NCBI RefSeq assembly: GCF_000220395.1
Contig: NW_004087547.1
Location: 16,589-58,509 of the forward strand
Source: Ichthyophthirius multifiliis
Lineage: Eukaryota; Ciliophora; Oligohymenophorea; Hymenostomatida
Direction: 5' to 3'
Length of the DNA: 41,921 nt
Positions 4,931 to 41,839 of the stretch are shown here, in pieces (positions within the stretch are counted from its first letter, which is position 1; each line of letters opens with the position of its first letter). The notes below the pieces were generated by a model. That model was not told where the DNA came from. It saw nothing but the letters and a program-made list of their open reading frames with translations, and did no database searches. The translations under genes were made by a program, and so were the position numbers.

Positions 4931-7900
4931 TCATTCAAACTATTCTTATAATATTTATTTTTTTTAATTATTTTTATATTATAGAATTTAATTCCAACCT
5001 TTTTGTTTATTTATATAAATATATATATATTTATATATATGTATATAATATTACGATCCCATAATTCCATTCCATAATCAAAAAAGGAAGTGCTGCCAAT
5101 AGAAAGTATAATCCCAAAATAAAAATTAGGACAATTAAGTATACTTTAAAAGTATATATAAATATTTATAAAAATTTTTTTTTTCTTATACTCATTAAAA
5201 ACTGAATAAGTTTCTGATTATCTAAATGCAATAGGAATGGTTTTAGTCATAAAAATATAATATAATATAGATATAATGGTAAATAATAAATAAGCCAAAT
5301 TATATTAAAATGATATAATTAAAACTTTTAAATTAGCAATAAATATTGCTATTGTAAATACCAAAGAACCTTCAGTCCAAAAGTTCATAGTAAAGCCATT
5401 GGGATTAATAAAGTTAGATTCTAATGAGTAATAGCTTAATTTATTTATTTTAATTTAATTGTTTTTAATATAAGTGTGTATTTATTATTAATTTACCTAA
5501 AATATGTTATTATGATTGATTACCATATTGCATTTATAATCCAATAACCGAATACTTTCGTATTAAGTAGTTTATCTATATTATTTAAATTATATTTTTC
5601 TACAAATAAAATATTTATTTACTTTTTATTCCTTATTCGTAATAATTTTATTTATTTTAAAGAAGAGTTTTATATTAATATTCATTATCATAAACCTATA
5701 TTTGAAAAAAAAAAAAATTTAAAAATTTAAATAATATAAAATCAATAAACCGCATATATAATAATAGGTAAAATAGTATAAAAGATATTAAATAATTAAA
5801 ATGTATATTTCTCATAAATAGCTTACCCAGAGAAATTATTAAAAAACGAATACCAAAATTAAGGAAAATTAAGAACCATATTTTTAAAAAAATTATAACA
5901 AACAAGTCTCGAGTTCCTTCTATAACATTCTCTTCCATGAAAAAATAACAAATTTTTTAAAATTTTGAATTCTCCAACAGCGAAATCACTAGCTCTAGCA
6001 GCCTTTTTTAATTTTAAAAAAAATATAATTTAATTTAATTTAGAAAAAAAATTTTTTTTTTTAAGATATTTTACTTATTAACCTTCAATACCTAAAATTC
6101 CTACACCTACATGTGCTGCATTAATCATATTAACGTCATTAGCACCGTCGCCAATAGCCAAAGTAGAAATTTTAGAATTATTATCCCTAACTAATGAAAC
6201 TAATTATTATTTTTATTAAGGGCTAACACGACAGCATAGTACAGAAGAACAATTATTTGTAATTTTTAAAATTAAATCTTTATTTTCACCTTTTGTTGCA
6301 TAAATTAAAGCATCTCCTGTAATAATAAAAGCATTATTGAGTAATATTCTACCATTTTTATCTCTATTTAAACTTATTTTATTATAAATATCCTGAAGAC
6401 GTTAATTAACTTCTTTTTGAATAGAATATTCGTCTTATTTTTAATCGAAATCTCCTAATAATTTCAAAATATATTAATTCAAGTTTTTGGACAAAAGTTT
6501 ACATGAAAATCCTATATTTATAGCTGTTTCAACTTTATCACCAGTTAAAACCCAAATCTATAATAAGTAAAAAATTAAATATGCAAAAAAATATATAAAT
6601 ATATAAATAAATATATATATGTGTATATTTATATATATAAATATTTTTATACATATTTATATATATATAATAATTATAATAATTTTTTATTAATATTTAT
6701 TTTATAATATTTATATATCTAATTATATATTTTTTTTTATTTTTATATTTATATTTATATAAATATTTTTTATATTTAATTTTACTTTTATTCCAGCTTT
6801 TTTTAAATCATTTATAGTTTCTTCTACTTTATCTTGCATCTTATCTTCTATAGCTGTAGCGCCAACTAAAATTAAATTATTTTCTAAAAGTTCCTATACC
6901 TCATACATTTTTTATTCTCTATTTATTAATGTTGTACATGCTTCATGGTATTTTTCAGACCAAACTTTATATTCGTTTTCTGATATTTCTCTTTCGCATA
7001 AAAGTAGAGTCCTTAGGCCTATGTTACCATAATTTTCAAGATTTTTTTCAGTTTCTGAAACATGCTAGCTATTTTTTTTGTCTATTAATTTAAATAAAGT
7101 AGAATCTGCACCTTTACAAAATAAATGTATTTTATTTGTTTCTTTATCTCTTAAAACTACTGATTAACGCTTTCTAATGGAATCAAATTCAAATACATGT
7201 AATAAGACTATTTTTTTTTATACCCCTTTAAAACTATATAATATATTATGATCTTCATCTAAACCAATAAATTCTACACCGCAATATTTTGAGAAATGTA
7301 CTAAAGCAAATATATATAAAGTAAATATATTTTATATATATATATATATATTTAATATATATGTAAATATATATATAATATATATTTTAATATATATATT
7401 TTTCTATATATTTTTTTTTTAAATTTTAATATATACATTATAAATTATTTATTATTCTTCATTTTCTGTTGTTATTTCACTTATTATTGTATGTGTAAAT
7501 GCTAATATTTCTAATGCTTTTCTATTTTTTTTTTTATTAATATAATAAATGTATTAAACTTTATGCTTTTATATTAAGGATTATTTTAATCATTAAATGC
7601 ATCTATAAAATTTTAATCTCGGAAATCTACATTTGTTACTTTAGGATATTATGATATATCTATAATATAATTTGGATCTCCTAATTTTGTTTCGCCTTTT
7701 TAATTTAAAATAATATATACATTTTCTTAAATAAAAATACCATAAGAAATTCCATTAATACATATTTTTTTAAAAACCATAATATTTTATGTTAAAGTTC
7801 CTGTTTTATCTGTAAATATATATTCTATTTACCCTAACTCTTCCATTAAATTTGAGCTTTATACATTTGTTGGTTTAATTAGGTTTTCTCCTTTTTCATC

Positions 7901-9602
7901 TGTTAATTATTAAATCATTTATTCATCCTTAATAACTATTTTTGCTTGCATAAATTTAACCATATCTATAGTTACTGCTAATGCTGTATTTATATAAATA
8001 TACATTTATTTATTTTTTATATAAAATAATATAAATATATATTTTTACATATTGGTACAAAATTATTTAAAATTAAAATATAATTTCCAAATCTGACAAA
8101 GAAATTATAATAACCAGCATGATCTTAAATCTAAATATAAATTTTTATTTTTTTTATTTTAATACTTAATAAAAAGAAAAAGTTACTTTGTTTTTATCAA
8201 TGTATAAATATTAGATTTTATTATATTCATTATTATACCAAATAGTATAATAAAGAGCACAAAAAGCACTTAAAAACATTTATAAGAAGAAAACAAAAAT
8301 AGTGTATCTCCCCATAATTCTTTCAAGCTTGGTCTATTTAGCTCTTGCTTTAAATGAATTCATCATTATTTTACTTTCATGTCCTGTATAAGTGACTAAA
8401 CCATAAACCCATTTTGTATTTTTTAGTTTACAACCTCTTAATAGAAAATTATTCATATCAATCGATATTTATGTTTGATTTTGTAATTAACATGTGCCTT
8501 AAAATTTATGTAAAATCGCGTTTGGTAATTCATATTATAATATTATTGGTTTATTTAACAATTTTTTTTCCTTTTTTTTTTATATTAAATAAAAAAAAAA
8601 AATTACATTACATTTATATCTGATCCAAAATATTAATATATATTCTTTTATGCAGTTCTTTATTTTAAATTAGTTTCCCCGTCTAATGATTTAGTTTCTG
8701 TATAACATAATCCCTTTGTTTCTGAAGTGCTTAATATTAATAAATCTGCAGGAAAAAGTTGCTTGTCTAAAATCTTTTTTTTTATAATTTAAAATTTTTT
8801 TTAATTACTTTAACAATCTATCCTACTTATAAATATTATTATTCCTTTTAAATGAACTTTTGTTTTTTGGCATCAAATACAAGACATAATCTCTTTTATA
8901 AAAAATTAAAAATAATTATTTTATATAAGTATAAAATACTTTGTTTTCTTCATTGTCCGATTTATGTCTTTAATAATCTTCGTAAAAGTCTCTGATTGCA
9001 GTTATAGTTAAAACAATAGAAAAAGGATAAAATGAAGTCGGTATACCATTTGATACTGAAATTTATGGTATCATTTAAAAAAGGCCAGCTATCTAAAAAT
9101 ATATAAATAAAAAATAAATTTCATTTTAGGATTTTTTTTTTTTTATGGACTAAAAAATATATATTGTGCAATTTGCTAAATTATTCAATAAAATTTTTAG
9201 GTAAAAAATTAATAAATGTATATTTGCTCGTAGAAATTTTATTATTTTTTAATTAATTATCTAATCTGTTTGAAGTTATTTTTCTGTTTATTAAGGGTGA
9301 TGATATATTTTTTTTTTTAGAATTAAATAAAACGTTGTTATATTCATAATCTTATCCAAAAATTTTTAAGTAAGCATCTGATTGTTATTTATTATTCAAA
9401 ATTTATTATTATGTATGACTAAATAAAATAAATAAAAAGTAAAATAAAAAAAATAAAAAAGAATAAGATAAAAAATAAAAAATATGAAAAATTAAAAAAA
9501 ATTGTAATAATATATTTTTTTAATATTTATTTAATATGTTTAATAAACAATAAATATATAATATTACTTTTCTATTATTGAGATGGATTATACTTAATTC
9601 AT
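4931..9602 (-). CDS. P4-type ATPase (phospholipid flippase), full length, copy B
   Basis: Complete multi-exon P4-ATPase, an ATP-driven lipid flippase with about ten membrane spans. In order on the minus strand I see the start MNQVQSISIIE (exon 1 at 9602), then [28 protein letters not shown] and SLDGETNLK near 8680. These are followed by [19 protein letters not shown] with the phosphorylated Asp at 7808..7810, [19 protein letters not shown] near 6550, CCRVSPQQKQQLVSLV, then [20 protein letters not shown] near 6150. Further on are [19 protein letters not shown] and the C-terminal membrane part ([29 protein letters not shown]). Every catalytic motif is intact. At least ten short GT..AG introns are needed, including ones after the ATP-binding and C-terminal exons. 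The exact 3' end is uncertain: a last intron gives a TGA at 4931..4933, without it 4935..4937. It is the tandem paralogue of the gene cut at position 1. Lipid specificity cannot be told from sequence. Confidence 0.92.
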
Positions 9603-11050
9603 TTTTTTTTTTTTATTATTAATTTATTAATTATTTAATAAAATATATATATAAAAAATAAACAAAATAGAATAATTTAAAGATAAAAAATATTAATAAT
9701 AAAAAAATAAACAATAAAATAACAAAAAAACAAATAAATAAATTTAAAAAATATAAATAAAAACATTAATTATTCAAATATTAAATAATTTATATATAAA
9801 ATATTATATGTATTTTTATTTTATTATTTTTTATATTTTTTTATATTATATTTTGATTTTATTTATTTAAAATTAATTTATCCTATTATTTTTTTATTTA
9901 AATTATAATTATTTTATTTATAAATCGTATATTTATATTTATTTAAAAATAACTTTTTAAATTAATTTAAATAATTTTATTTATTTATTTTTATACCATA
10001 AATATTATAATATTTATTATTAAATAAATTAATTCTCTACTTATTTTATTTAATAAAAGAAAATTAATTTATGATAATTCTTTTATAAATATTCTTTATT
10101 AAATAAAAAATATTAAAAAAATTATAATTAGGTATTACTAATATGATTTTATAGAATAATAATATATTTAAATATAAATTTAATAAATATCATTTACGAT
10201 AATAAAAGCTTAAATTATTTTATTTAAAAATATATTCTAAACTCATCTTAAAAGTATTTTCAAAAAATTAAAAATTAGAAAGGGTTTAATCTATAAAAAA
10301 AACTAATATAGAATTACATTTATAAAAAAATAATTTATAAATATATAAAAAAGTAAATAATTAAATTTAATTATTAAATTTGAATATAAATATAATAGTT
10401 AATTTTATTTTTATATTAAAATTATAGTTATGTATTTTATCATATATTATATAAAATAGTGAATTTTAACATGTTTTTTATACTGTATATTATTATGTTG
10501 TTTATACTGTATATTATTATTTTTTACTTAAAATACTGTTAATATTTAAAAAAAAAAAAATTATTAATTAATTCGATAAGTTCATAAAACTAATATAATT
10601 ATTAAATAATAGTAAGTAATTATTAATTCTAAATAATATATAAACATTAAATTATTGAAAAAAAACCAAAATATTTTTTAATAAAATTATTAGAATATAA
10701 AATATTTAATTGTGAACATAACATAAAAATTAATATAAAAAAATTATGGAAATTTTATTTCAAAATATTTTAGAAAATAAATGATTAGTATATTATATAT
10801 AATATAATATTACATTTTATAAAAAATGTATATAATCTAAATTTTTAAAATATATTATAATTATATAATTTTCAAAGAATTATTAAGGTAATATAATTAT
10901 TTATAATATTAATTATAATAAAATATTTAAATAAATTATTAACATTAAGATTTATTATTTAAATGATAAAAAATTTTAATTTAAAAATAATAAAAAATAA
11001 GATTTCAAAATTAATTAAAATTATTATTATATTAAAAATTATATTAAATA
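8389..11050 (-). repeat. Tandem segmental duplication, unit B
   Basis: Second copy of the unit that starts at position 1, beginning inside the flippase gene. The gene parts are highly conserved, and the upstream 1.5 kb is only patchily alignable because of AT-rich drift and many indels. Confidence 0.8.
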
Positions 11051-30212: not shown

Positions 30213-32741
30213 ATGAACTAATAATAATTTAAACAATAATAAAATAATTTTAATATAATGAATTTCCTAAACAGCTAATTACCTTAAAATCCATTATAAA
30301 AAAAGGTAAAATTAAGAATAAATTAATTTTAATAATTCAACAGCCCTTAAATAAAGATAAATAAGCATTCTAATAATTAATAACTGTCATAATATAAGTA
30401 ATAATAAAATATTTAAACAAATAAAGAAAACTGCTACCAAAAACTGGTAAACGACTCTATGTAAATAAATAATATAAAGCCTGAAACTCCTTAATAGAAT
30501 AATGCTAATTTAAAATAAATAATCTAATCAACCAGAGAATATAATTATAACAATAATTAATAAAGATATAAAATTGAAGAAAATATTCACGAATATAGAC
30601 CTAGTGGTTAAAAAGAGAAAAATTTTAATTCCTGTTAAAATAATTAAAATAAAGTTTCTGAAAAAATAGATTATAATAATAATTTAGAAAATTATATACT
30701 TTAAATAAATAATGTAAGTATGAGTACTTAAAAAGCAAGTGAAAATATAAAAAATTTGATGGAAAATCAAAATTATGAAAAAGCTTTAAATTTATCATCA
30801 AAAACACTTTTCGATATTGATAATTAAATCATTAAAATTAAGACTACGATAGAGTTTGCCTTATAAAATTCTTAACTTCCTGTCACTAGGCAACTTTTAA
30901 TTGAAATAGTAGAAAATTTAGGAGATGTATTGAAAAATTAAGATTAGGAAGTTACAAGAAAAATAATTGAAAAAATATAAAAAAATGCTCAGAGATTAGT
31001 TGATAATTCTTAAAGTTCTTATAATCTTTTTGTCTATTTGGATAAAATTGCTAAGTTTTTAAAATAAAAGGAAGGCGTTATAGAATATTAAATATAAGCA
31101 AATGAAATTAGTATGCTTAATTAAACCAATAATAGTTTCTGGAATGTTAAATAAATAGACTGTACGGATTATAAACAATTTTTACCAAAATAAAATAATA
31201 ATAATAATTAGAATATATATACTAATAATAATGATAATGATATATATAGTAATCCTATATCTAATTTAAATACTTAGACAAATAATAATAAAACTGATTA
31301 TGACTATTAATAATAAATTCCCATTTCTTATTAAGGAGATTAAAAGTATTAATAATATAATGTATTTTAATAAAGTAGTAATACTCCTATTTAGTAATTT
31401 AAATAATATTAAATATAAAATAATTCATAGTAATAGTTATTTTGTTCGCCTTATGTGATTTAACCATTTTAATAATAATAATAAAAATATTCAATTAATA
31501 ATTTTTAAAGTCCGTAATTAACTTTTGAAAAGTATTAATAAGACGGGAAAAGTTAAAATTATTTGGAAAGGAAAGTTGGTTCTTATAGTAATTTAGATGA
31601 AAATAATAATTAGTTTTAAAGTTCTTTTAAATTCAAGAATAGGGAAGAGTAAGATTAAGTCAAAAGAAATTAAAAAATGCAAACTATGCCTGATTATAAT
31701 GAAGATTTTTAAAATAATTTGAGAAGATAAACAACACTGGATAAAACTTAATTTAATTCTTTTAATAATTTAAATAGTAATTTAAAATTAAATCCCTATA
31801 TTAATAATTAAATTGAAGATATAATGAAAAAATATATTAGTTAAGATAATATTAGCTTTAATAATAATTACAAAGCTTAAAAATATACTTAACCTTATGA
31901 TATTGATATTAATAATACTTAAAATAATAACATTGATATTTTATAAGAAAAATAATATAATTATTTGGATAATCAAAGTGATATTTTTTAAAAAGATTTT
32001 TTAAATGAAAATAAATTTTAATATGAAAATTTAATCTAAACAGAATAATCTTAAAATAATTATAATTCTGAAAATAGAATTAAAAAAAATTATTTAGAAA
32101 ATAATATTGGTGTACTTAATTTTGAAAATAAAACTAAAAATAATTATAATATTTAAAACTAAAGTGATTACAATTAAAATTTTGAAATTAAAACTAATAA
32201 TTATAATTTTGAATATAAAAATAATAATCAAGGATTAGTAAATAATACTAATAATAATCTTTTTGAAAATAAAAATAATGATATTATTTTAAAAAAAACA
32301 AATATAAACAATGATTATAATAAAGATATTAAAACTAATGAAAATAATAATTATTAATATGAAAATCATACTTAATAATTAAATTATTCTCGTAATAGTG
32401 TATATTAAAATTATAATAATTATTCTTATTCTTAACCTGAAAATACTTAAATAAGATTTAAAACAGAAGAAAACTTAGGTCTATTTAAAAAAGAAATTTA
32501 AATTGATTATTATTTAAGTCCTAAAAAGTAAAATAATAATAAATAATCGAATGAAAATATTTAAAATTTGTAGTTATTAAAGGTTAAATTTTTTGATATT
32601 GCCACTAAAATTAAATCATAATTACCTATTAATCATTAAGGAAAGTTTTTACTAGTAAGTGATATGTGGGAAAAAGCTAAAAATATTGATCAAAGTTAAT
32701 TCTAGAGCTTTATTTAACAATAAATTTAAAATGGTTAATGA
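30213..32741 (+). CDS. Gln/Asn-rich protein with shared helical and C-terminal domains (paralogue 1), 842 aa
   Basis: One uninterrupted frame from ATG to TGA (32739..32741), 842 codons, dozens of them TAA/TAG. Residues 1-165 are Q/N-rich and disordered. Residues about 167-310 form an all-helical domain (LLIEIVENLGDVLKNQDQEV, then SSYNLFVYLDKIAKFLKQKE). Residues 310-785 are very Asn/Gln-rich low complexity with repeats such as NFE(N/I)KT and NNYN, and a short motif EDIMKKYISQDN near residue 536. Residues about 788-842 are a compact C-terminal domain (VKFFDIATKIKSQLPINHQG then KFLLVSDMWEKAKNID). Both ordered domains recur in the gene at 35613..38052, so they are real folds and the two genes are paralogues. 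I do not recognise the family. Low-complexity N/Q stretches suggest a scaffold or condensate-prone protein; that is inference. Confidence 0.8.
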
Positions 32742-32809
32742 ATAAATAGATTAAAATTATTTATTATTATTTTAATTTTATTTCTTTAAAGTTCTAACTT
32801 TTTTTTTTG

Positions 32810-32841
<32 letters not shown>

Positions 32842-32914
32842 TTTAGTAAAAATTTTACCTTAATTTAAAATAATTTATTTATTCAAATTTTTATCTAATT
32901 TATATAAAAAAAAA

Positions 32915-35175
32915 ATGAACAAATAATTAATAAATAAATTATTTTAAAATAAATAAATAACGTTAAAAGAGGAAAATTAATCTAAATATTTTACAAATAA
33001 TGATGGTAAAAATTATACTTTTATTAGTTCTTTTTTTATTTTGTTAATTTAATATATAGATCCAAATTGTTCTAATGATTTTAAAAATTAAATATAGAAT
33101 ATCAATATTTATTAAATCAAAAATAAAAACTTTTCTTTGTAAGAAAAAATAAAATCTTTATAAGTTCCTCGTAAAATAAAGTAATAAAATAAAATATTTG
33201 ATAAGTTTATAAGATAAAAAAATATAACAAAGATCTAAATAACCAATAAAATTAATTAACTACTAAAAATTTTAAGAATAATAAATAAACATTTAAAAAG
33301 ATAATATAAATTCTTAAAGAAATTAAACTTTATTTAAAGATTAAATTTTTAAAACATTAAATATTTATTAAATAATTGAAAAAAATTCTCAATAATCAAT
33401 ATAAAATTATTCTTCTTCTGATATTTCTAGTAGTGACAAAAGTATTTTATATTTTAATGAAAATTTATTTAATGAAGAAAAGGATTAAAAAAAAAAGAAG
33501 AGAATATTTTACAATAATAATCATAATAAATTAAATAAGAAAATGGAATTAAAATTTATTTAGATAAAACACAAAATAATAAGGATGAAATTATAAAACA
33601 AAAAAAAGTAAAAACAACAAAACTAATATTAAATAAGAAGAATTATTTTTCAAAGAAAAATAGAAATTTTATATACATAGTAATTATAATAATATTCCAT
33701 TAGAAGAAGTAGTTTAAGTTATAAAAAATTAGTATAATGGAGAAATCGATTCTGAATTAAAAATAAATACTAATTATATTTTAGTTGGTGATAAAAATAT
33801 TAACAAAGAATCATTTGAAAAAGCTTATTATTTCAATACAAAAATTTTATATGAAAAAGATTTTATGTAAAATATTAAAATCTAATCTTAATATAAACGA
33901 AAAGAAAGTAATTAAAATAAAGTTTAAGAAATATTAAAACCTTAATAATAATAATTTAATTAATAAAAATAAGAAAATTAGTAATATTAATAATGGTCAG
34001 ATTTATATTCACCTTATGATTTAAAAGATTTTATTGGTAATGAAAGTTAAGCTTAAAAACTAGAAGTATTTATCTAAACTAATTTGGAAATTAATAAAAG
34101 TACCTCTGAGATTTCTAAAGGATGTCTGATTTCAGGTCCTAGTGGAGTTGGTAAAAGCTTGATAATAAAACTTCTTTGTAAAAAATATGAATTGGAATTA
34201 GTTTAATTTAATAATTTATAAATGAATAAAATTTTTAATGAAATTTAAGTTAAAGGAAAGAATATAAGTATATGGAAAAAAAGAATAATTTTTTTAATTG
34301 ACGATATAGAAATTTTCGAGAAGGAAAAAATAAAAGAAATAGTTGAATTTATAAAAAAATCATAAAATATACTAATATGTGTTTGTAATAATAAATATTA
34401 AGAAAAGTTTAATTAATTAAGATAAATTTGCGTAAATATAATTTTTTATAAAATTCATAAAGAAAAAGTATTAATGAGAATATAATAAGTATGCAAAATT
34501 GAAAATATGAGTTCCTTTTTTTAAAAAAATGAGGTTATTATTGAATAATTAATTGAAAACTCGAATTTTGATTTAAGATTATGTTTAAATTAATTTTAGA
34601 TTTTAAATTAAATTTATAAAAATAGTTAAGCTTTTTAAATTAAAAGTATACTTGATTTCTAAAAAAATGAATTCTTAAGTCCTTTTGAATGTGTAAAGAA
34701 GATTGTGAATTAAGAAAGTAAAAAAAAATTGACTTTTTAATAAAAATAAGACCTTTATTTATATTATCCTTCTATTGTTTTTTAAATATTACATTAAAAT
34801 TATGTTTATTTTATTGAAAATAATATTAATAGTTTAGTTAGGATTTCATAGTCTTTTGCTTTTTTTGATATTTTTAATAATTTTAATCATTCTTATTAAA
34901 ATTTTTGGCTAGAAGATGATTAGGGGTTTCTTATTTCTGATTTTATTCCTAATTTTATGTGTAATAATATTTATTAGTAGTTAAGCATGGAAAATAATTA
35001 TAATAGTTATTTTATTTAAAAGAAAAAGTTTATTAAATAAAAACTTAGAGGAATCTGTGATTATTAAAGTTTTGAATTTTTCAAAAATATTTTTTTAAAT
35101 TTGGAAAATAAAGATCAAATTATTAAGTAGTTTTTTTTAGAAAAAGATGTTTTAAATTCTTTAATAAAATAATGA
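32915..35175 (+). CDS. Replication factor C large subunit-like protein (RFC1-like), frame-disrupted
   Basis: RFC1 is the large subunit of the PCNA clamp loader. Intron 33006..33059 follows a short first exon. A BRCT-like segment lies at 33640..33870 (IDSELKINTNYILVGDKNIN, then SFEKAYYFNTKILYEKDFM). Next come SDLYSPYDLKDFIGNESQAQ (the RFC1 KYKP..IGN block) and Walker A GPSGVGKS at 34135..34158. Walker B RIIFLIDDIEIF is near 34283..34318, with Asp where DE(x)D is usual. ILICVCNNKYQEKF matches PIICICND, and FDLRLCLNQFQIL matches the DIR..LN.LQ helix. LSPFECVKKIVNQESKKKL and YYPSIVFQILHQNYVYF fit the RFC1 C-terminal domain. TGA is at 35173..35175. The N-terminal half needs one extra A at 33487..33496 and at 33600..33607, plus a compensating shift near 33216..33380. 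From about 33610 to the end the frame is clean. About 735 aa; more diverged than other genes here, so it could be a fast-evolving or decaying copy. Confidence 0.78.
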
Positions 35176-35458
35176 TTTTATATAAAATATTTTTACAACT
35201 AAAATACAAATTTTAATTTTACCTATTAAAATTACTTAAAATGTATAAAAAATAATCTTAATATTAGTATTATATATCAATATAATATATGATAATTTTA
35301 TATTTATGTAAAAATTGATTTAGTATTTATAAAAAAATATATTTTTTTTATTTATAAATTAAAACTTATCTAAATTAATATAAATATATATTTATTTTTT
35401 AATATATATATACTTATTTTTATTATAAATTATATGCAAATTTTTTTTTTAAATAAAT
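35176..35458. other. AT-rich intergenic DNA
   Basis: Short A/T-only spacer after the RFC1-like gene; no feature seen. Confidence 0.45.
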
Positions 35459-35535
35459 AAAAAAAAAAAAAAAACGAAAACAAAATCAAAAACAAAAACA
35501 AAAACAAATAATAAAAACAAAAACAAATAATAAAA
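35459..35535 (+). repeat. A-run and AAAAAC/AAATAAT simple repeat upstream of paralogue 2
   Basis: An A-run is followed by repeated AAAAAC and CAAATAATAAAAA units, ending about 80 bp before the ATG at 35613. It is strongly strand-asymmetric (no T-runs, no G after the first). Likely promoter or leader sequence. Confidence 0.7.
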
Positions 35536-35612
35536 ATAATACTATAATATTAAAAAAAAAAAAAGCTTAAATAATAATATTTTCATCATATAAAAATATA
35601 TATAAATAAAAT

Positions 35613-36652
35613 ATGTATTAATATCAAGACCATCCAGAATATAGAAGATCATAATAATTATATAGTACAAGCTAAAATGAATTAATGAATTAATTTTAAT
35701 AAAAAGAAAGAAATACAGTAGATTTAGACAATATAATGAAAAAATATTAAAGTAAAAATAAATAAAAAATAAAATAAAATAATATATAACAAAAAAAGTA
35801 AATAATTAAAAACCATTATTAGCTTAAGTATATTCTCAAAATAAATAAACATAATAATAATATCCTTAATTATTATAAAATACATAAGAAATATAAAGCA
35901 AGTAACCAATTCCTAATAATTATGAAAAATTTTATAAATTTGAAAAATTAGATTTAAATAATGTAAATATATCAAATAATACGAAACAATCACAATAATA
36001 ATAATTTATTTAAAACTTTTCTAATTAAAAACCTTAATAACAATAGGTTTAGTAAATAATATAGCCTTCATAAATATAATAGTAGTAAATATAGTAAAAA
36101 TAATAATAATAATAATATTAATAACCTTAATAGTAATAAAAATAACTAAAATTAATAATAAATCAAGTATAACTGCCTTAATAAATTTAATAAATAGGAA
36201 TAAATAATGAAAAAGAAGAAAAGATATTCGATAGTGATGATGAAGATTTGACAAAAAATGAAGTTTAAGAATTAAGAATTAACCAAATGCATGCTGAAGT
36301 AAGTGTATTAAATGATTAAGTACATAAATTATTGGCAAATTATTAAAAATAACTATAAAATAATAGAGATAAAAATTAAGTAAAATAGTAAGTGAAATAA
36401 GACGCAAAGCTTCTTTAATAAGGGTTTAAGGAAATTATAAATAAATTTGAAGATTTGTCTTGTATAGATATTTCTAATATATCTATGCATTCTAAAAGTA
36501 ATATAAGTATAACAGGAACTTATTCATTTTTCTTAAAAGGAGAATCTAAAAAATAATAAGAAATTAATATAATGATGAATCTTGTGGAGTAGTTTTTAAC
36601 GAAATTCGATGAAGATTCAGTAATAGAATAATAAAATTAACTTTCATAATAA

Positions 36653-36705
<53 letters not shown>

Positions 36706-37720
36706 TTAATAATAATCATTTTAATAATAATCATTTTAATAATAATAATCCTAATAATAATAAAATAATAATAATAATTAAATATTTCACTCTTAATAAA
36801 AAATTAAATGTGAAAATTTGTAAGAATTATCAAATTTTAATTATTCTCAGAAAGCAAATTGTTAACAAAATAATTTATAAGCAATTGAAATATTAGAAAA
36901 TCTCGAAAATTTAGATTTATATTGTGGAAATTGTGACTTATATTTTAAAAACAATACTTTTTTTGAACATGTTAAATAGTGTGATAAAAATCATTTTTCA
37001 TAATTAAATGCAGATGAATCTTTTTATAATTTGGAACAAACTAGTAATGTTATGTAAAATTTAGATAAAAAACTATTCAAAATTAGTGAAAATTTTAAAA
37101 ATACGCTTGCGCTTTAAAAATTACCTTAAACTTAAGAAGTTTTAAAAGAAACAATTTGTGATTTGGGGGAAGTATTAAAATTTTAAAATGGATAAACAAC
37201 TAAAAATATTATAAGGAAATTAGAAAAAAATTATAAGAAATGGACGTTAATGATAAAAAAGCGTCTTACAAACTGTATTTGTATTTAAAAAGAGTAACTA
37301 ATTTATTAAGGGAAAAAGAAACTGCTTAGTAGTAAATTACTGTCTTATAAGAAATTAGTTTTATGTATAATTCTAATTTGAATGAATTAAATAATAAAAA
37401 TAAATAAATACTTTAGTAAAATTAGCCTAATATTAATAGATTTAATGATATTTCTATTATTAATTAAAAACCTAATGTTAACAATAATACTAATCCTAGT
37501 ATTAATTCTACTGCTACTGGTACTTTTGGTACTCTTTCTAATGGTGGATTTGGAATGATTTTATAGAATAATTAAGTATCTAATAATTACGGAAGTAATA
37601 ACAATAATAATAATTACGGAGGTAATAATAATAATAATAATTTACTTAATTTAAATAATTATGGTACAAACAACACTTTTAATAATAGTAATAACACTTT
37701 TAATAATACAAATAATAATT

Positions 37721-37756
<36 letters not shown>

Positions 37757-38052
37757 TTGGAAATATAAATTGTAATTTTGCTAATAATAATAATTTTGGA
37801 AATACTGGTGGTGTTTTTGTGAATAATTAAATTGGTATTAGTAATTTATATTCTAATAAAAATAATATTTAAAATGCTTAATAAGAATTGGAAGAAAAAA
37901 GCAAGTTTTATGATATTGTTAGTGAAATTAAAAATAAATTACCAGCTAGTCATATTGGTAATTCGATTCTTATTTCTGAACTATATTAATAAGCTAAAAA
38001 TATGCCAAAGGCTTAATGGTTATCTTTTATTCATTCAAAGTTTAAAATATGA
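35613..38052 (+). CDS. Gln/Asn-rich C2HC zinc-finger protein with shared helical and C-terminal domains (paralogue 2)
   Basis: Starts MYQYQDHPEYRRSQQLYSTS and carries DLDNIMKKYQ near residue 45. A long polyQ region and an acidic helix (FDSDDEDLTKNEVQELRI) follow. Then comes a polyQ tract coded almost only by TAA (36658..36705). A zinc-finger CGNC...H...C (C-x2-C-x11-H-x3-C, from about 36923) sits mid-protein. The helical domain (KETICDLGEVLKFQNGQTT, then SYKLYLYLKRVTNLLREKE) and the C-terminal domain (KFYDIVSEIKNKLPASHIGN, then LISELYQQAKNMPKAQW) align with the gene at 30213. Between them is an Asn-rich stretch with NTFNN-type repeats. Two A7 tracts (35791..35797 and 37224..37230) each need one extra A. 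Adding both gives 2442 bp, exactly 814 codons, and restores the alignment with the paralogue. TGA is at 38050..38052. Family unrecognised. Confidence 0.75.
36658..36705 (+). repeat. (TAA)n polyglutamine tract inside paralogue 2
   Basis: A pure TAA trinucleotide run read in-frame as glutamine under the ciliate code. It would be a run of stops in the standard code. Confidence 0.85.
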
Positions 38053-38738: not shown

Positions 38739-39156
38739 TCATCTTAAATCACTGATATCATTTACAAGTATACTTTTTTATTATAATTAATCGTTAATAG
38801 AAGGAAAAACATTCCAAAATCTTAAAGTTTCATCTCCAGCTCCTGTAACAATTGTCTATCCATCTGGACTCATAGCCAAGAATAAAACTCTTGATGTATG
38901 TCCTGTTAATTCTGCGACTTTTTACATGGATGGATATTTCCATACTATAATTTAATTCTAAGAATATCCATGTGTACTAACTATTTCATTAACACTTTTA
39001 CCAAACATAAGATTACAAACTTATGATTAAGTATCTATGAAATCTAATTATTTATTAGTAGAAGTATTCCAAAATCTAATACATCTATCTTATGTGCCTC
39101 CTCCTGATGCTAATAAATCTTAAAATAGATAAATTTTAATATATATATAAATATAA

Positions 39157-39201
<45 letters not shown>

Positions 39202-40574
39202 CTATGTTAATGAGATGACCAAGCTATAGCTTTGACAGCAGCTTGATGTTCGTAGAATTTACAAACAGGTTCTTATGAATGATTATTCCAGACATTTAAT
39301 TTATTATCATTACCTCCTGAAGCTAATAGTTGTTCATCAAAACTCCATTTTAAACCACATATTTCTTATTTATGTTCTTTTAATTTTTTATAATAATGAT
39401 TTTTATCTCTTAGGTCTCTCATTAATATATTTTTATCTCTAGAACCTGTAGATAATGTTCCTTAAGACCAAGCTATAGAACCTACTCTTCCCTAATGTCC
39501 TTTTAGAGTCCTTATGTTTTAAATCTCACCAGCATCCCAAACTTATGTTTCTCCTTTGGAAGTTCCTATACATAATTAATGACCCTTAGGGTGCCAATTA
39601 ACACTTGCAACGGAATCATTGGATCCTAAATCGCAAAACTTTACCACTATATTGCTGTTTGCCTTCCATAAATAAACACAAGGACCAAGTGCAACTGCAA
39701 GGACATTCGTTAAAGACCAATCTACTAAATTTAGGTAGAAATCGTCTTGTAAGGAAGGTGCGTCTAGTACTTTGAAAGGGATTTTTGATATATTTCGAAG
39801 GTTTTTTTTCTTTTTGAGGTCCATTTAAAGATTATCATAAATTAAGTAGTTATTTTGGATTTCTTGTTGGAGTTTTTGGGAAGGGTTTATAGGTGAATTT
39901 TATTTATAACTAAAAATATTTTAATTATTTCCTTAATGATAGTTTTCTTCGTATTTATTAGTTTGGCGTAATTATAAAACATGTTTTTTATATAATTCGT
40001 CAATTGATATTTAATATTATTTATCCAAAAATTGGCCTTTTAAGCCATTTTTATGAGAAAAAATGTTTGTGTTTTCCTTTACGTCGTGTAAGTCGGTAAA
40101 TGCAATTGTTAATTTGGAAGTTTTTCTAGAAGGTATGTATCGATCGGATTTCTTAGTGTCGGATTTTTTTTGGGTGAATTGTTTTTTAATTTTGGTAGTT
40201 TCGTCTATGCTTTATTCTTATAAAGTTTAATTTTTTTAGAATTTTAAGTCTTAATTTATATTTGTTTATGAATTATAGCTTTTATTTTTTTTTTATTTAT
40301 TTTTATATTTTTAATGGTTTTTATTTTTTTACTTGCTTATATGTTTTAGGGAAGGTATTGTACTTTATAAACAATTGTATTTACTTGAAGAAATTAATGT
40401 TGTAGTGTCATCGTGTATATATGATAATGATGGGTTATAATTGATTTAAGAATATTGCTTGTTTGTGTTTTAGGATATTAGGGAATAATTATCTAATTTT
40501 TTTAAAGGCTCTTATTCAGTTTGGAAGTTTTCGAAAGTTGATTTTTCTAGTTTATGTCTTTGTGTATAGTTCAT
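38739..40574 (-). CDS. APC/C activator, Cdh1/Fizzy-related type WD40 protein
   Basis: Recruits substrates to the anaphase-promoting complex ubiquitin ligase. Two exons (39203..40574 and 38739..39118, intron 39119..39202 containing an AT microsatellite) give exactly 584 codons, 583 aa. The disordered N-terminus carries a perfect C-box SDRYIPSR (residues 143-150), which binds the APC/C, and a KEN degron (166-168). The propeller starts [20 protein letters not shown] and continues [20 protein letters not shown]. Blades include [66 protein letters not shown] and [20 protein letters not shown]. The protein ends DISDLR, a Leu-Arg tail equivalent to the IR tail that docks on [14 protein letters not shown] and DLG.NDSV are closer to Cdh1/FZR1 than to Cdc20. 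No frame break. TGA is at 38739..38741. Confidence 0.94.
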
Positions 40575-41839
40575 TTTTTTTATTATTAATATATTAGTAT
40601 TTTTTTTTGTTTAATAGGTAGAAATAATAAATATTATTTATTTTTTTATTAAGAAATTATATTTTTTTTATTTTTAAAATTAAAAATTTTATTAGAAATA
40701 ATTTATAAACACAAATAAAATTTATTTTAATAAGTAAATATATTAAATTTATTATTTAATTATATTAATAAAAATAATAAAAATATTATTTATTAAATTA
40801 TTATTATTTATTGCAAAATATTTTGATATAAAATAATATTATTATTATTTTTTAATGTTTTTTTTTATCTTTTTAATTGAATATCTACTTTTAATTTCTT
40901 TATATTTTAAAATATATTATTTCTTAGGTAGGTATAAAATTTTAAATATATACTACAATTGCTTTTATTTAATTCAAAATACTAACAAATGGATTTTAAA
41001 ATCGAAACTAATTTTAAATATTGTCAGCCTTTATTTTAAAATAATTATAAAATAAAAAAAATATAATGTAACAAAAGTATTTAAAAATCATATACTTTTT
41101 TTAATGTTAATATTTTAACTGAAATGTTTATTTATGATTATTGAGATTTCATTTTTATTTATATTTTTTAGAAATCAAATTTATATTAATATTATTATTA
41201 ATTACTACATTTAATTAAATACTTATGTGTAAAATATACATAATCATTATTATATTATATATTTACTACCTTGTATAATATAAAATTTGAAAATTGAAAT
41301 ATAAAAATATATTTAAGTTTTGTTATTTTATAAATAAATATAAATATTAATATTTATCAATATCTGGATAAAGTATTATAAAAAAGTATAGAATTTAATA
41401 GTTTAATTATTAAAAACATTATGAATTATTACTTATATATAAACAATTTTAACTTACTTTTTTTTATTTGTAAAAAAAATTTCTTTTTAAGATGAAAAAA
41501 GAATTTAGAAAATAAAAAGTTACTGTAAATAAAGTTTTATATACATTAAAAACCTATTTATATTATTAGCATTTATTCAATATATAAATAAAAATGAATT
41601 AGTAACTTTATAATATATATTATTAATAAAATAATTATTACTTTTTGTAAAATAAAAATAAAATGATAAATTAAAAAGATTAAGAAGATCATGTTTATAA
41701 TTAATATATAATACTTAACAAAAATTGTGCAATATTTCAATAAAATTAAATAAAAAAAATATAAATAAAAGATTTATAATAATATATAAAATATAAAATA
41801 AAATATATATATAAAAATAAACATATGTATATGTATATT

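Follow-up and report, generated by a model that had tools for sequence, protein, structure and literature searches.

The HisK-N-like globin domain (PF20302) belongs to the ASK signalosome and takes its name from animal ASK stress-kinase complexes. Zinc fingers of the zf-C2HC_2 and UBZ4 types have a spacing comparable to C-x2-C-x11-H-x3-C. One article describes ASK1 as having a small SAM domain after its C-terminal coiled-coil region (PMC10972558). Here we report that two genes, designated P1 and P2, in a 41,921-nucleotide stretch of the genome of the ciliate Ichthyophthirius multifiliis (the window, which lies on the 58.5-kb contig C72 of a 44.96-Mb assembly of 937 contigs) encode members of a protein family with at least five members, the others being designated C21, C350, and C917 after their contigs. 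The family is genuine but has no name in any of the libraries searched, and its genomic setting is ordinary. The features of the two genes, in window coordinates, are as follows.

30213..32741, + strand: P1, one open frame of 842 amino acids in code 6, no finger found, start codon assumed
30690..31142, + strand: P1 helical domain, five predicted helices (AF2 model)
30822-31070, + strand: P1 sub-threshold match to HisK-N-like (PF20302), from Pfam on the fragment
31821..31841, + strand: IMKKYIS motif in the P1 linker, residue 537, a single occurrence that may be chance
32580..32738, + strand: P1 C-terminal helical domain (family alignment, shuffle test)
35613..38052, + strand: P2, zinc-finger family member, coding across three successive frames
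35643..35654, + strand: P2 N-terminal RRSQ motif (sequence), common to C350 and C917
35733..35750, + strand: P2 IMKKYQ motif, residue 41, in the N-terminal place of DIDxII..Y of C350 and C917
35752..35822, + strand: candidate 71-nucleotide GT-AG intron of P2, inferred from sequence
36206..36620, + strand: P2 conserved block preceding the zinc finger (HAEVSVLxDQV..., NIMMNLVEQFLTKFD), from alignment with C917
36923..36982, + strand: P2 C2HC zinc finger CGNCDLYFKNNTFFEHVKQC (pattern and alignment)
36983..37395, + strand: P2 helical domain with the second frame change inside it (family alignment)
37891..38049, + strand: P2 C-terminal helical domain (AF2 model, shuffle test)

A preliminary description of this region had proposed that P1 and P2 have two domains in common, one helical and one C-terminal. 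The peptides quoted there were found, and both domains were borne out when Smith-Waterman scores of P1 against P2 segments were each compared with 2000 shuffles of the same composition. The N-terminal half of the helical domain scored 112 (shuffle mean, 35.0; z, 12.9), its C-terminal half scored 70 (shuffle mean, 32.6; z, 6.8), and the C-terminal domain scored 126 (shuffle mean, 26.0; z, 19.9), scores that none of the 2000 shuffles reached in any of the three cases. The control comparison of one Q/N-rich linker with the other scored 72 against a mean of 74.1, a result at the level of chance that 1168 of 2000 shuffles reached. The IMKKY motif was present in both proteins at different places, as had been described, and of the two proteins it was P2 that had the C2HC pattern, which was not found in P1.

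The family was defined with searches of the organism's own genome that used P1, the C21 protein, two pieces of P2, C917, and the tail of C350 as queries; the resulting counts are lower bounds. C350 (739 amino acids) and C917 (545 amino acids) are each encoded in one open frame. P2, C350, and C917 have an architecture in which N-terminal RRSQ and DIDxII..Y-type motifs are followed by a conserved block, the C2HC finger, the helical domain, and the C-terminal domain. The block is built around HAEVSVLxDQVxKLLxNYQ and NxMMNLVExFLxKFD, and the short N-terminal motif is kept in the same place in all three proteins. Their fingers have the same C-x2-C-x11-H-x3-C spacing, differing from the described C2HC fingers in having no Pfam C2HC match. 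The aligned piece that spans the block and finger of P2 is 42% identical to C917. P1 and C21 have a second architecture, with both shared domains; the C2HC finger was not found in either. The linker between the two domains is about 480 residues long in P1, 41 in C350, and about 25 in C917. Six columns of the C-terminal domain are invariant across the five members, as are three columns of the helical domain across five rows.

In a tree built on 116 shared columns of the family, P1 and C21 grouped together in 100% of 200 bootstraps (FastTree support, 0.972). The other internal split, which places C917 with C350 and leaves P2 on the P1/C21 side, was recovered in 53% (FastTree, 0.478), and the placement of P2 is therefore weak. 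P2 was most similar to C350, at 48% identity for the C-terminal domain and 50% for the N-terminal half of the helical domain; the C-terminal domain of P1 was 43% identical to that of C21 and 38% to that of P2. Because P1 is closest to C21, the pair did not arise by a recent duplication, and a recent tandem duplication from P1 to P2 was rejected on the tree. The earlier suggestion of local duplication is therefore not supported for a recent event. The weakly favored split, with P2 on the P1/C21 side, would allow a local duplication of greater age, after which family members dispersed.

The initial failure to recognize a named family for the shared domains was repeated in each library. Pfam scans of the family proteins at full length gave nothing over the cut-off, and NCBIfam likewise gave none. 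The conserved N-terminal block had no match in a Pfam scan, the middle piece of P2 matched only Hydrolase_6 (E value, 0.15), and no Pfam zinc finger was listed for the family pieces except zf-C4 (E values, 1.6 and 4.1). A sequence search of the PDB with P1 found no match up to an E value of 1, and the best match of the P2 pieces (0.072) was to unrelated chains. Profile searches of the PDB returned designed binders and unrelated chains, the best (0.0039) being a designed protein. A homology search with P1 residues 165-300, C917 residues 145-545, and C350 residues 208-345 gave no match up to an E value of 10, in a protein database that did not return the queries themselves, seems to lack this genome's proteins, and is thus uninformative about other ciliates. 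A literature search found nothing on this five-member family with terms whose breadth limits its value as evidence of absence. Identity as a CID (Pcf11-like) domain was considered and rejected: PF04818 has one locus in the genome, on contig C210, that is none of the five members, and it was also not listed in Pfam scans of family fragments.

Both shared domains are predicted to fold on their own as compact helical domains. AF2 modeled the P1 helical domain as five helices (pLDDT, 86.4; pTM, 0.80) and the P2 C-terminal domain (37864-38049) with a long first helix (pLDDT, 94.5; pTM, 0.77). The C-terminal model had no convincing Foldseek match, and no SAM chain was among the matches listed. Among the matches that Foldseek and VIA listed for the helical domain were generic bundles, designed proteins, spectrin repeats, and syntaxin Habc domains. 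The VIA rows for the five-helix P1 model were generic bundles, and the absence of globin-like entries there excludes nothing.

Matches to PF20302, for which the curated Pfam cut-off is 27.8 bits, provide a lead for the helical domain. The C350 helical fragment matched at 8.6e-6 and 26.4 bits, under the cut-off, over profile positions 14-106 of 132. The P1 helical fragment matched at an E value of 0.0035 over positions 22-104 of 132, and after trimming at 3.5e-4 and 21.2 bits. The right-hand register was the same in both, with P1 residue 286 and C350 residue 642, which are paired in the alignment, both falling at profile position 104 (for C350, counted back from position 106); at the left end the two registers were about three positions apart. 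Five reversed decoys gave a best value of 0.0022 with five different best families, none of them PF20302, which favors the lead. Several observations weigh against it. Every member is under the curated cut-off, and PF20302 was not listed for C917, C21, or the half-domain of P2, that is, for three of the five members. The two matches are not independent, because P1 and C350 are related, and the forward fragments also matched unrelated families at 0.0015-0.0091. The profile itself, when searched against 386 genomes of one cyanobacterial phylum, matched three of them at 20.2-23.0 bits, all under the cut-off, and one of these three matches runs through six stop codons. As for its specificity elsewhere, among 14 control genomes it matched Synechococcus elongatus, under the cut-off, and it found nothing in a search of the organism's own genome (0 of 1) or in the cyanobacterial genomes reached by locus (0 of 7). 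We treat kinship of the helical domain with PF20302 as a lead with a little under an even chance, and not as membership.

Comparison with the ASK proteins gives a likeness in the helical domains of C350 and P1, which align to the HisK-N-like profile, and differences elsewhere. Unlike the ASK kinases (MAP3K5/6/15), the family had no kinase or SAM domain listed in Pfam scans of P1, the P2 pieces, C350, C917, and C21 without its 5' end, and no PH domain was listed in family members. The long first helix of the C-terminal domain model is also unlike SAM. It is conceivable, if doubtful, that these proteins are ciliate kinase-free adaptors that join a HisK-N-like domain to a C-terminal fold for which no solved counterpart was found, with a finger and an N-terminal docking motif in three of them.

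Our tentative preference, held at somewhat less than even confidence, is for the more general reading that P1 and P2 belong to a family of at least five modular adaptors whose domains bind partner proteins. The helical bundle, which may be related to the HisK-N-like domain of ASK complexes, would be the part for self-association or docking. Partners could bind at the compact C-terminal domain and at the IMKKY-type motif, the C2HC finger may add a further contact, and the linkers would act as flexible tethers.

Both proteins had been described as Q/N-rich. Of their asparagine plus glutamine (N+Q) level, 54-68% can be put down to base composition, and the rest is real enrichment. P1 has 34.3% N+Q against 22.0% predicted from base composition, and the two P2 pieces reach 31.2% (predicted, 21.3%) and 36.1% (predicted, 19.6%). 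Two comparison genes, the RFC1-like gene between P1 and P2 (21.9% against 20.0%) and a CDC20 gene (18.4% against 20.1%), were close to prediction. The remaining enrichment peaked in the P1 linker (36.5%). We take Q/N-rich linkers as probable flexible tethers and not as a sign of prion-like function. Long near-repeats of the AAT/TAA type at 36640-36800 and 37580-37840 code for the poly-Q and poly-N of P2.

Under code 6, the P2 reading frame shifts from 0 to 2 near 35750-35830 and from 2 to 1 near 37225-37240. The first change adjoins the IMKKYQ motif and is compatible with the 71-nucleotide GT-AG intron at 35752-35822; three more GT-AG pairs of suitable length lie in 35690-35860. Introns are reported in 79% of the genes of the published Ichthyophthirius genome (PMC3341644). 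At the second change, which adjoins a run of A, there is no fitting GT-AG intron in 37180-37290. Pyrosequencing miscounts runs of one base. Because of the run of A and because the published assembly is reported to be based for the most part on pyrosequencing (PMC3341644), a sequencing error at 37225-37240 is no less possible than a broken gene.

The genetic code follows from the window itself, which contains 187 closed open frames of 100 amino acids in table 6 versus none in table 11. Thus, TAA and TAG read as glutamine (code 6), as in ciliates. The guanine-plus-cytosine (GC) content of the window is 15.2%, and its composition and the genome size are in keeping with the values of 15.9% GC and 49 Mb given for the published I. 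multifiliis genome (PMC3341644). Elsewhere in the window, 1-1425 and 8388-9621 are near-copies (81-95% identity over six ungapped blocks) that flank a minus-strand stretch with a match to phospholipid-translocating P-type ATPases (PhoLip_ATPase_C, 5742-6908). Either part of the region was duplicated in tandem or the near-copies stem from the assembly. A CDC20/Fizzy-type WD40 gene on the minus strand (38739-40958; E value, 2.5e-116) lies just downstream of P2 and is convergent with it.

The gene enclosed by P1 and P2 lies outside the family and is probably no more than a neighbor.

33625..35175, + strand: 3' part of a third, diverged RFC1-like AAA+ gene (Pfam, blastp)

Its earlier description as RFC1-like was confirmed by Pfam matches over the cut-offs to AAA (PF00004; E value, 7.3e-7; 30.1 bits against a cut-off of 21.2), indicating an AAA+ ATPase domain, and to Rad17 (2.1e-5); AAA_lid_RFC1 (0.016) was under the cut-off. 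In a blastp search of a database of 51 frames, the enclosed protein matched the RFC1-type proteins of contigs C439 (4e-20) and C2 (9e-17). Like RFC1, it has an AAA+ ATPase with the Walker A motif kept. A stretch that may be BRCT-like is 37% identical over 65 amino acids to its C439 counterpart, and no Pfam BRCT was listed for it. It has DDIE where the C2 and C439 proteins have DEID. The enclosed gene may be a diverged clamp-loader paralog, which would bring the RFC1-type large subunits of this genome to a possible three.

Several alternatives to a family of partner-binding adaptors deserve consideration. The members could instead be structural helix-bundle proteins of the cytoskeleton or cortex, their likeness to PF20302 having arisen by chance among helical profiles. 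Such proteins would fit the bundles, spectrin repeats, and syntaxin Habc domains of the Foldseek and VIA lists, the three members that PF20302 leaves unmatched, and the block preceding the finger, which is coiled-coil-like by eye with no prediction behind it. However, no cytoskeletal family was over the Pfam cut-off in the scanned members, and the finger, the compact C-terminal domain, and the short N-terminal motifs would be more typical of docking proteins; we consider a structural role unlikely, if the nearest of the alternatives. That the family is an old and known eukaryotic one, such as a vesicle-trafficking or RNA-processing factor that diverged past the reach of profiles in a 15% GC genome, is less probable still, given that even the conserved N-terminal block has no Pfam match and that the CID profile finds its one locus outside the family.

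The remaining two alternatives concern the locus. P2 might be a decaying copy, which would make at least one of the pair a relic, as the second frame change without a fitting intron would allow. The rest of P2 is nevertheless open, its domains are 48-50% identical to those of C350, and in a mostly pyrosequenced assembly (PMC3341644) a run of A could account for the frame change, all of which makes a pseudogene rather improbable. The preliminary description had also raised the possibility that P1 and P2 act with the enclosed replication-factor gene as a lineage-specific system. P1, the RFC1-like gene, and P2 are indeed adjacent on one strand with the CDC20/Fizzy gene just downstream, but the nearest relative of P1 is on another contig. 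Furthermore, the RFC1 C-terminal domain (PF08519) was found on C2 and C439 only, and not in the window, in a genome search to an E value of 10, and no family member was found on C2 or C439. When the enclosed protein was compared by blastp with 225 frames of the C21, C350, and C917 loci (5.3-7.0 kb each), the single match had an E value of 0.71. Because no RFC1-like frame was found in these stretches around the three loci, position is the only tie to the family, and the RFC1-like gene is likely an unrelated neighbor. We therefore regard the proposed system as highly improbable.

The published account of the Ichthyophthirius genome calls it streamlined and counts only 26 genes among its 12 Ich-specific paralog groups (PMC3341644). 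The retention of at least five members in such a genome argues for a maintained function that the libraries searched do not cover. Should the HisK-N-like lead fail, the family would still offer a small domain that is modeled with confidence and has no convincing match among solved structures. If the lead holds, it would extend a signaling module to ciliates, in which kinase-free HisK-N-like adaptors would represent a piece of the ASK signaling toolkit.
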